DNA of 64,000 nucleotides from an uncultured Lachnospiraceae bacterium (GTDB lineage: Bacteria; Bacillota; Clostridia; Lachnospirales; Lachnospiraceae), in NCBI GenBank assembly GCA_947588995.1, contig CANPZI010000003.1, positions 1 to 64,000 of the forward strand, in the 5' to 3' direction. The translations under genes and the position numbers were made by a program. Of the stretch, positions 37,220 through 40,493 are shown in pieces; positions within the stretch are counted from its first letter, which is position 1, and each line of letters starts with the position of its first letter. The notes below the pieces were generated by a model. The model had not been told where the DNA came from, searched no databases, and worked only from the letters and a program-made list of their open reading frames with translations.

Positions 37220-38470
37220 TCAGGCGCGAATCTGGCCGTCGCCGCGGATCAGGTACTTGTAAGTGGTGAGTTCTCTCAGGCCCATAGGCCCCCTGGCGTG
37301 CAGTTTCTGTGTGCTGATGCCGATCTCCGCGCCGAAGCCAAACTCAAAGCCGTCGGTAAAGCGGGTAGAGGCATTGACATAGACACAGGCCGAATCCACA
37401 CCCTGCAGGAACTGCTCGGCATGTTCCGCATTCTGTGTCAGTATGGCGTCAGAGTGTTTCGTGTTGTAGCGGTTGATATGCGCTATGGCCTCCTCCACGG
37501 AGCCTACCGTCTTCATGGAGACGATATAGTCCAGATATTCCGTCCCGTAATCCTCCTCCGTGGCGGCCACGGCATCGGGAATCATCCGCCTCACAGTCTC
37601 GTCGCCGCGCACCTGTACATGCTTCTCCCGCAGCGCCTCGCCCAGCGCCGGCAGGAAGCGCGCCGCGATTCTTTCATGGACGAGCAGAGACTCACAGGCA
37701 TTGCAGACACCGATGCGCTGTGTCTTGGCGTTCAGGATAATCGGAATCGCCCGGTCCAGATCAGCGTCCTCATCCACGTAGATATGGCAGTTTCCCGTGC
37801 CCGTCTCGATCACGGGTATGGTGCTGTTCTCCACCACCGCCCGAATCAGGCCTGCGCCGCCCCGGGGAATCAGCAGATCCACATACTGTTTCAGCTGCAT
37901 GAAAGCAGTCGTCACCGCCCTGTCGTTGTCCGTGATCAGCTGCACCGCATCCGGATTGATCTGTTCGGCTAAAAGCGACTCTCTGATAATCTGTGTGATC
38001 GCCTCATTGGAGTGTGCCGCATCCCTGCCGCCTTTTAAGATCACCGCATTGCCGGTCTTGAAACACAGGCCGAAAGCATCCGCCGTCACATTCGGACGCG
38101 CCTCGTAGATGATACCGATAACGCCCATGGGTACCCTGACCTTGTCGATATGAAGCCCGTTGGGCCTGTCGAAGTGCTCCATCACCTCGCCGACGGGATC
38201 AGGAAGCGCTATAATCTGCTTAAGCCCTTCCGCCATCGCCGCGACCCGCTCAGGCGTCAGCTGCAGACGATCCAGCAGCGCCGCAGACATACCGCCTGCC
38301 TGCGCAGTCTGATAATCCTCCCTGTTTGCCGCAAGAATGCGTTCCGTCTGCCGCACGAGGGCATCCGCCGCCGCCGCCAGTCCTCTGTTTTTGTCTTCCT
38401 CCGTCAGCTTCTGCAGCTCGTATTTTGCCGCCGACGCTTTTTGTCCTAACTGTTCCAGATATTCCATCAT
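37220..38470 (-). CDS. proA: Gamma-glutamyl phosphate reductase
   Basis: VPMGVIGIIYEARPNVTADAFGLCFKTGNAVILKGG; NACESLLVH; TKHSDAILT. GAGG lies 6 nt before the ATG at 38470. Confidence 0.96.
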   Translation of the reverse strand: MMEYLEQLGQKASAAKYELQKLTEEDKNRGLAAAADALVRQTERILAANREDYQTAQAGGMSAALLDRLQLTPERVAAMAEGLKQIIALPDPVGEVMEHFDRPNGLHIDKVRVPMGVIGIIYEARPNVTADAFGLCFKTGNAVILKGGRDAAHSNEAITQIIRESLLAEQINPDAVQLITDNDRAVTTAFMQLKQYVDLLIPRGGAGLIRAVVENSTIPVIETGTGNCHIYVDEDADLDRAIPIILNAKTQRIGVCNACESLLVHERIAARFLPALGEALREKHVQVRGDETVRRMIPDAVAATEEDYGTEYLDYIVSMKTVGSVEEAIAHINRYNTKHSDAILTQNAEHAEQFLQGVDSACVYVNASTRFTDGFEFGFGAEIGISTQKLHARGPMGLRELTTYKYLIRGDGQIRA

Positions 38471-38485
38471 CTCAATCCTCATTCC

Positions 38486-38576
38486 GGAGCGTTTACGCGA
38501 CGGGGCTTGAAGTAAATTCCTCCGGAATTAACTTCGCCCTCAGGGGAATTTGTGACGCTCCTGTGCAAATTCCCCT
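38486..38576 (-). ncRNA. Candidate structured cis-regulatory RNA upstream of proA (two hairpins plus possible pseudoknot)
   Basis: AGGGGAATTTG...CAAATTCCCCT (38542-38576); GAAGTAAATTCC-tcc-GGAATTAACTTC (38509-38535); loop ACGCTCC (38555-38561) complementary to GGAGCGT (38486-38492). Confidence 0.45.
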
Positions 38577-39265
38577 CAGCGTATGACGCCGACCTCCGTC
38601 ACAATCCTGTCCGGCCTGATGTCATGCGCCCCGTTTGGAATTGTCTCCAGCACCTGGCAGCCGTAAGCCAGCGCCGCCGTAAGCAGGATCAGGCGCTGTC
38701 CCGCCTGGCACGCTCCGGCGGCCTGTCCGCCGTCTTCCCGCTCTATGCTAAGGCGTGCCAGATACCTGTCATAAAAACCGCCGCCATAGCCGATGCGGTT
38801 CTTCTCCCTGTCAAAGGCCACCCCCGGCATCCACATCACGGCTCTGCACGCCGCCTGCCGCAGCCCGGCCCGACCGTCCGCATCGCCATGTCTGCCGCCG
38901 CTTTCCGGGCGCTCTTTCTGTGCGGCAAGCCAGGCCGGAAAAGACAGCACAGGCTCCGGCTCCGGGATGCCCCGATAACCTTCCCGCAGGTCCGTCATGG
39001 CTTCTATCCGCCAAAATTCCATCTCCCGGCCCGACACTCTTGGCACGAACACCGCCTTGCCGTCGGCAAGCGCCTGTCCGATCAGCCTGCGCGTATCCGC
39101 CTCGCTTTGATAACTCACATAGGTGAGAACGGCTTCCGCCTCCTGATATTCTCTCATGCGCAGAGCCTGATCCGCCATGGCGGCGTCCCATGCCGCCCTC
39201 TGCGCCCCATCCAGCCCGCTGCGAAGAGACAGCATGCGCTTTCGCAGTTCTTTTTTCCCGTCCAT
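38576..39265 (-). CDS. 5-formyltetrahydrofolate cyclo-ligase family protein
   Basis: KKELRKRMLSLRSGL; WMPGVAFDREKNRIGYGGGFYDRYLARL. Confidence 0.93.
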   Translation of the reverse strand: MDGKKELRKRMLSLRSGLDGAQRAAWDAAMADQALRMREYQEAEAVLTYVSYQSEADTRRLIGQALADGKAVFVPRVSGREMEFWRIEAMTDLREGYRGIPEPEPVLSFPAWLAAQKERPESGGRHGDADGRAGLRQAACRAVMWMPGVAFDREKNRIGYGGGFYDRYLARLSIEREDGGQAAGACQAGQRLILLTAALAYGCQVLETIPNGAHDIRPDRIVTEVGVIR

Positions 39266-39301
39266 CGTCTTCCGAATGCTCCCTGCTGGCTGCTCCTTTG
39301 C

Positions 39302-39526
39302 TCACGATTTGCTGCCGAACTTCTCTCCGAGGTCAGTGACGGAACCGTCTTTTTCTATGATAGAGATATTGTCAAGCTGCCCGCGCAGATTCGCCCGCAC
39401 ATTGGCCACATACGCCTGCCTGAGGCGTTTCTGCTCTTCTTTCTCCGCCTCGGTCAGTCCCTCATCCTGTGATTTGTGATACAGCTCGTTAATCCGTTTG
39501 GTCATCTCCGCAACGGTCATATCCAT
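39302..39526 (-). CDS. DUF896 (YnzC-like) protein
   Basis: AEMTKRINELYHKSQDEGLTEAEKEEQKRLRQAYVANVRANLRGQLDNISIIEKDG. Confidence 0.92.
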   Translation of the reverse strand: MDMTVAEMTKRINELYHKSQDEGLTEAEKEEQKRLRQAYVANVRANLRGQLDNISIIEKDGSVTDLGEKFGSKS

Positions 39527-39614
39527 ACCTCAGCCCCTCCGCATCATCTGCCGCCGCGCGGTCTCATATCCCGCAGGGAACACCGCGCAGCCTGCGCGCT
39601 GGCCGCATATCGTC

Positions 39615-40493
39615 TCACTCATGCATCTGCTGTACATAGAGCGGCAGGTCGAAGCCCTCCTCCTTATGCGCGAGGAAAAGCGTACCGATATTCTGCCCTG
39701 CCAGAATCCTGTGGATCACCTTGATGTCCGCACTGTTGGCAATCACCATGTCCACACCCATATTGTTGGCGATCTTCGCCGCCTGCAGCTTCGTGTTCAT
39801 GCCGCCCGTGCCGGAATCACTGCCTGTGGAGGCCTTGCCCATCTCCATCAGCTCGTCCGTCAGTTTCTCCACCACTTCGATATATTTTGCCTCCGGGTTT
39901 CGCCGCGGATCGTCCGTGTAGAGCCCGTCGATGTCAGACAAAAGCAGCAGCATGTCGGCGTCGATCAACGAGGCGACGATCGCCGAGAGCGTATCGTTGT
40001 CTCCGATCCCCAGCTCATAAGTCGCAATGGTATCGTTCTCGTTCACAATCGGCACCACGCCAAGCTTGAAGAGTTCCATAAACGTGTTGCGCGCATTGAA
40101 ACGGTTCAGGTTGTCAATGATCGTATTCTTCGTCATCAGGATCTGCGCCGCCACCTGATTGTACTCCGCAAAAATCTTCTGATAGGTCATCATCAGCCTC
40201 GCCTGTCCGATGGCCGCGCAGGCCTGTTTCAGCGCCGTCGGATTATCCTCGCCGGTGTTCTGCATCATAATCGCTTTTTTCCCCGCGGCAATCGCCCCGG
40301 ACGTCACCAACACCACATCCTTGCCGCGATTCCTGAGATCGCACAGTTCACGCACGAGCACGTCCAGTTTTGTGTAGTCGAAATCTCCCGTCTCTTTATG
40401 CTGCAGGGACGACGAACCGATCTTGATCACGATCCGTTTCTTGTCTTGCAGCCTCTCTCTGATGTCTGCCATATTTTCCCCACTAAGCTCCAT
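39615..40493 (-). CDS. proB: Glutamate 5-kinase
   Basis: RIVIKIGSSSLQHKETG; VTSGAIAAGKKAI; GIGDNDTLSAIVASLIDADMLLLLSDIDGLYTDDPRRNPEAKYI. Confidence 0.96.
   Translation of the reverse strand: MELSGENMADIRERLQDKKRIVIKIGSSSLQHKETGDFDYTKLDVLVRELCDLRNRGKDVVLVTSGAIAAGKKAIMMQNTGEDNPTALKQACAAIGQARLMMTYQKIFAEYNQVAAQILMTKNTIIDNLNRFNARNTFMELFKLGVVPIVNENDTIATYELGIGDNDTLSAIVASLIDADMLLLLSDIDGLYTDDPRRNPEAKYIEVVEKLTDELMEMGKASTGSDSGTGGMNTKLQAAKIANNMGVDMVIANSADIKVIHRILAGQNIGTLFLAHKEEGFDLPLYVQQMHE

Follow-up and report, generated by a model that had tools for sequence, protein, structure and literature searches.

A dispersed repeat of Lachnospiraceae upstream of proA, carrying its own SD sequence and a conserved predicted pseudoknot: a putative mobile translational switch

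The region upstream of proA

In the window, i.e. the entire stretch of 64,000 nt from an uncultured Lachnospiraceae bacterium that was analysed here, proB, a 5-formyltetrahydrofolate cyclo-ligase-like gene (candidate name; 38576-39265) and proA (gamma-glutamyl phosphate reductase; 37220-38470) lie consecutively on the minus strand (37220-40493). The gap between the cyclo-ligase-like gene and proA contains two hairpins, with the RNA corresponding to the minus strand, as the initial annotation had stated. Direct reading of the sequence also bears out its description of hairpin B (38542-38576), which has 11 bp and a 13-nt loop: the arms are AGGGGAATTTG (38576-38566) and CAAATTCCCCT (38552-38542), the loop is CACAGGAGCGTCA, and the outermost pair takes the last base of the TGA of the upstream gene. 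The predicted complementarity between this loop and the leader is exact over 7 nt, GGAGCGT (38561-38555; GGAGCGU in the RNA) pairing perfectly with ACGCTCC (38492-38486) immediately 5' of the SD sequence GAGG (38480-38477). The latter strand is part of the core ACGCUCCGG (38484-38492), which would serve both as second strand of the pseudoknot and, through its CUCC, as a candidate anti-SD. Hairpin A, located between hairpin B and the core, is of the GAAGTTAATTCC type (here GAAGTTAATTCCGGAGGAATTTACTTC, 38535-38509). A GGAGGA was thought to be exposed in it; just the GGA resides in the loop, the remainder being stem. At -45.8 kcal/mol, the predicted fold of the 121-nt region is more stable than those of its dinucleotide shuffles (-33.5 +/- 3.7 kcal/mol; z = -3.3).

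Hairpin B, hairpin A, core and SD together form one copy (38471-38575, minus strand) of a repeat family described below. This copy is an ordinary, slightly decayed member of the family: it abuts the stop codon of the cyclo-ligase-like gene and is devoid of the 5' hairpin C of full-length copies. Its SD lies at the 3' terminus of the element, in the register common to the family. According to this register, proA probably starts at 38470 (ATGATGGAATAT..., MMEYLE), with the start codon (38468-38470) 9 nt after GGAATG. The listed proA reading frame begins at 38482, within the SD region. In most copies, the AUG of the GGAAUG at the 3' end of the element (GGAATGGAGATTANNATG) is in frame and 12 nt upstream of the start codon, which is why automatic gene-start calls are shifted, for proA to 38482 instead of 38470.

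Repeat architecture and distribution

The initial annotation had regarded dispersed genomic copies as an argument against its own proposal, and such copies do exist: besides shorter fragments, the 161-bp region has some 20 substantial matches at other places of the 3.2-Mb genome. The repeat is roughly 105-170 bp long. Aligned copies appear as mosaics with a constant 3' part, CGTCGCGNNAACGCTCCGGAATGGAGATTANN-ATG, and full-length copies begin with hairpin C, which in some of them is followed by a hairpin D; next come hairpins B and A, the core and the SD. Hairpin B has the consensus TTTGTG-CCGGAGCGT-CACAAA and its basal pairs covary, being fully paired in 109 of 155 copies versus 25 after shuffling. 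Hairpin C, GTGTGAAAAATCACACTGATGTGCTGATTTTTCACAC or similar in the full-length copies, changes in sequence while its arms stay complementary. The position of hairpin A is occupied by several unrelated stems, and in most copies the hairpin differs (e.g. GACGCGAATTTGAGATTCGCGTC) and shows no AAUUCC/GGAAUU complementarity. An arm swap between hairpins A and B, as envisaged for the proA leader, is therefore not a feature of the family and was rejected. Shortened copies without hairpins retain the core, the SD and the ATG register.

Several copies deviate from this scheme. In our genome, L026/L302, L301 and L304 carry internal deletions but keep the ends; such forms consist of hairpins C and D with the core, or of hairpin C fused to SD and ATG. 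Four loci (L160, L183, L202 and L255) have tandem or neighbouring copies, of which the second directly follows, or lies near, the 3' SD end of the other; this would be expected if that end itself is a target of the element. The stem found as hairpin A in the proA copy (GAAGTTAATTCC...GGAATTTACTTC) also occurs on its own, at position 65350 of the same contig, just past the window (L021), and at position 1874 of contig C23 (L023), and once as a near-tandem pair. Stems of this type may represent a separate dispersed palindrome that has been exchanged into the larger element. Apparent orphan hairpins were mostly the palindrome read on the opposite strand. Since many copies have no 5' part, we also considered 5'-truncated retro-insertion; decay is likelier, because copies beginning within hairpin B mostly have no adjacent SD. 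No longer autonomous version with both ends was seen among the fetched loci.

Of 60 genomes sampled from the genus, 43 gave a DNA match. With a covariance model, 46 of the 298 genera sampled within the Lachnospiraceae were positive, many of them having at least 13 copies each among the matches listed, and the repeat was also detected in a second family of the order. In a class-wide sample, three of 291 genomes were positive: our genome, another member of its family and, with a weak match, a genome from outside the order. An independent scan with an exact pattern gave matches in Acetatifactor, Eisenbergiella, Roseburia and other Lachnospiraceae; Bacterium C-53 and IMSAGC_005 are cultured examples with copies. 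Viral origin was rejected, as viral contigs and plasmids gave zero matches and just two weak ones came from unannotated faecal phage records.

Position relative to start codons

Among 118 pattern hits, a start codon followed by an open frame was located at most 22 nt away in 108, and an ATG exactly 9 nt after GGAATG in 90; at random positions of the same DNA the corresponding values were 22% and 0.7%. Element-free native GRAWGGAG sites in the same DNA have a broad spacing (13/76 at 9 nt; Fisher p = 6e-20). Such sharpness leaves two readings: either insertion occurs at a point defined by the start codon, or strong selection acts on the spacing. The orientation relative to the start codon is likewise fixed among copies. 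The genes behind the copies are unrelated and, as named from reading their protein sequences, include clpB, galT, pyrG, hslO and those for a UDP-sugar dehydrogenase, an ABC permease and a penicillin-binding protein.

An SD-like 4-mer is present within 16 nt 5' of 97 of the 113 full-length copies (background 21%), and the 5' flanks mostly end in TA ahead of GTGTG. Often, GTG-TGA or ATG-A lies just a few nucleotides beyond the abandoned native SD, at the foot of hairpin C (e.g. L226 and L201), a start-stop arrangement that is not strictly conserved (GGGGG and GTGCG variants).

For clpB, sites with and without the element can be compared. Relatives without it have GGGCAGAGGAGGCG-ATATC-ATG or GGGCAGAGGAGGCG-ATGTT-ATG, whereas our genome has GGGCAGAGGAGGCG-CG, then the element (GTGTGAACAATC...GAATGGAGATTATT) and then the ATG. 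MAFFT aligned the native SD of clpB with the 3' terminus of the element; on inspection by eye, GGGCAGAGGAGGCG, a match of 14 nt, belongs to the 5' side. Read in this way, the aligned sequences show an apparent insertion between native SD and ATG, the old SD lying outside and the new one being borne by the element. Similarly, in galT of our genome the SD AAGGAGAGAGTA is directly followed by the element. At clpB there is no clear target-site duplication. Among the copies, the similarity between the 5' flank and the 3' SD region of the same copy (6.15 versus 5.36 when permuted, p = 0.0002) suggests a target duplication, a comparison confounded by lineage.

Pseudoknot conservation

Covariation, which the initial annotation had proposed to look for, was indeed found. 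In 46 distinct loop-core pairs, counted as distinct sequences and not as independent events, 92% of the cells are paired and seven of the nine pairs show compensatory changes. The covariation score is 0.387 versus 0.221 +/- 0.016 in shuffles, none of 500 reaching it; sliding the partner lowers the pairing to 23-41%, and the loop of a copy matches its own core better (7.37) than permuted ones (5.94 +/- 0.15). Coordinated changes of loop and core are seen, for example, in CCGGAGCGU/ACGCUCCGG, CCGAAGCGU/ACGCUUCGG, UUGGAGCAU/AUGCUCCAG, UCUGAGCGA/UCGCUCAGA and UUGGAACGU/ACGUUCCAG, in copies found by the covariance model and not by the exact pattern. Loops longer or shorter than 9 nt were positioned with a GAGC-like anchor. 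This gives an advantage to the middle pairs and has less influence on the outer ones, which bear most of the compensation. With the full alignment, RNAalifold recovers hairpin B alone because the families of hairpin A are out of register with one another, and the pseudoknot was therefore counted separately. As judged from the sequences, the predicted pseudoknot is strongly supported as a conserved feature of the repeat family. Its pairing stops about 4 nt before the SD, and its least variable positions are those also able to pair with the SD.

Comparison with known elements

No Rfam 15 family matched the proA region at gathering score, the only hit being a miRNA model at chance level (E = 0.57), and in ten loci with copies tRNA alone was matched. 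We did not find a description of the repeat in the open-access literature searched. The repeat resembles BOX elements and miniature elements of the MITE type in kind, and differs from them by being fixed in place between SD and ATG, by bringing an SD of its own and by its covarying pseudoknot. The BOX elements of Streptococcus pneumoniae (boxA-boxB-boxC) are, in the excerpt of the source used here, likely to affect co-transcribed genes (PMC3049150). As described in that excerpt, they share with the repeat a modular, stem-loop-rich organisation, a dispersed intergenic location in a Gram-positive genome and a supposed non-autonomous mobility; a fixed SD-ATG placement, an SD of their own and an SD-proximal pseudoknot are not among the features given there (PMC3049150). 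In sequence and modules, BOX elements appear to differ from the repeat. Like MITEs, the repeat is small, non-coding, dispersed, present in high copy number and apparently mobilised in trans (PMC10969869). Unlike MITEs, its insertion is tied to translation start sites, and it has no terminal inverted repeats, the 5' end (GTGTGAAAAAT...) and the 3' end (...CGCTCCGGAATGGAG) not being inverted; the words "ribosome" and "start codon" are both absent from a review of prokaryotic MITEs (PMC10969869).

Folded hairpin ends, the absence of obvious inverted termini and a preferred target side recall REP/REPIN and IS200/IS605-derived elements, from which the repeat differs in that no Y1 transposase was detected in our genome. 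REPs are not known to lie at a fixed distance from an ATG. As in pseudoknot-type translational riboregulators, a conserved, covarying pairing adjoins the SD. In the preQ1 riboswitch and the S15 operator, a strand of the leader that is able to pair with the SD is either sequestered or set free by a second strand within a pseudoknot; these are gene-specific leaders, whereas the repeat is dispersed and putatively mobile, precedes unrelated genes and has no known ligand.

Proposed function and alternative explanations

The explanation that we favour as a whole, and consider probable, is that of a mobile SD-replacing element with a conserved pseudoknot and a putative anti-SD switch. It would be a small non-autonomous mobile element of the Lachnospiraceae that inserts between SD and start codon. 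The sequences show that the old SD stays on its 5' side, that its 3' end supplies a new one with a fixed spacing to the ATG, and that the hairpin B loop is complementary, with compensatory changes across the family, to as many as 9 nt of the core adjoining the new SD. Translation would be off when the CUCC of the core strand, acting as anti-SD, pairs with the element's own SD, and on when the loop captures the core, which would remove the anti-SD and open the SD. The invaded gene would thus be kept translatable and possibly adjustable. Since pairing with the SD is likewise open to the core strand, a role as anti-SD/anti-anti-SD switch or as insulator appears likeliest from the folding models. 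In pseudoknot-free folding of 161 copies, the mean unpaired fraction of the SD is 0.27, and 0.49 with loop and core held occupied; pairing between CUCC and SD averages 0.41. Occupancy of loop and core opens the SD in 65% of the copies and closes it in 17%, from which we infer the competition and its direction. Against our explanation we count that no mobilising enzyme was found, Y1 transposase giving no match in our genome, that the switch rests on pseudoknot-free folding and that the latter copies behave in the opposite way. C-type cores are mostly combined with GGAG or GGGG SDs, and GAGG prevails with A/G-type cores (11/15), an association that is confounded by lineage and by which the core-SD stem stays possible.

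If this is true, a short interspersed repeat with a covarying RNA switch can invade the gap between ribosome binding site and start codon, even of likely essential genes, which would be possible because the element brings a replacement ribosome binding site. A family that includes major gut commensals would then allow direct tests of how mobile DNA rewires translation, with many natural variants available for studies of the competition between SD, anti-SD and pseudoknot.

Mobility is supported at the sequence level by unoccupied sites, tandem or neighbouring copies and dispersion. Against the switch, the same pairing of loop and core could serve recognition of single-stranded DNA. Hairpins and pseudoknot would then be bound in this form by a transposase or recombinase acting in trans, and effects on translation would be incidental. 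We regard this as a serious if doubtful possibility. The repeated, mobile-looking distribution, the structured ends, the persistent complementarity of the changing hairpin C arms and the retention of both ends in the internally deleted L301 and L304 are consistent with it; that the pseudoknot partner adjoins the SD, that its least variable positions can pair with the latter, and that hairpin-less copies preserve core, SD and ATG register argue against it. Moreover, Y1 transposase (PF01797) had no match in our genome, five of 14 control genomes being positive, and a Y1/IS200-type mobiliser was rejected.

It is rather unlikely that the pseudoknot is instead the OFF state, blocking 30S loading beside the SD, with translation rising on its opening. 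Pseudoknots adjoining the SD are known repressors, as in preQ1 riboswitches and the S15 operator, and the end of the pairing so close to the SD would suit such a role. The folding models, with the SD opened by occupancy in most copies, point the other way, and constitutive repression would be costly for likely essential or highly expressed genes such as pyrG and clpB. We consider it unlikely, too, that the element targets the translation initiation region itself by recognising the site between SD and start codon, swaps the ribosome binding site for its own and, by means of a portable pseudoknot switch, makes unrelated genes respond to a common signal such as temperature, a small molecule or a protein. 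An ordinary REP/BIME, ERIC or terminator-like intergenic palindrome without any role at the start codon would account for a short, palindromic, intergenic high-copy sequence, yet is very improbable in view of the fixed orientation and ATG distance, the element's own SD and pseudoknot, and the absence of a detected Y1/RAYT-type protein and of an Rfam match at gathering threshold.

To a proA-specific riboregulator with two competing hairpins, the original reading, we give practically no credence: its location between the cyclo-ligase gene and the proA start and the strong folding of the region would fit, but the sequence is a dispersed repeat ahead of mixed unrelated genes, the arm swap is unconserved and the repeat is absent upstream of proA in the relatives examined. 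What stands of that proposal is the conserved loop-to-leader pseudoknot adjoining the SD of the gene, whereas gating specific to proA was rejected. Leader structures before single genes can be copies of a repeat. Orthologs of proA are present in 75 of 77 genomes of the genus. The element is absent from the proA leaders of the related genomes examined, one of which has an unrelated, decayed copy; the nearest relative reads TGA-GGCGGAAATGGAGAGCGGA-ATGATGG and is element-free. In several relatives, the upstream neighbours of proA differ.
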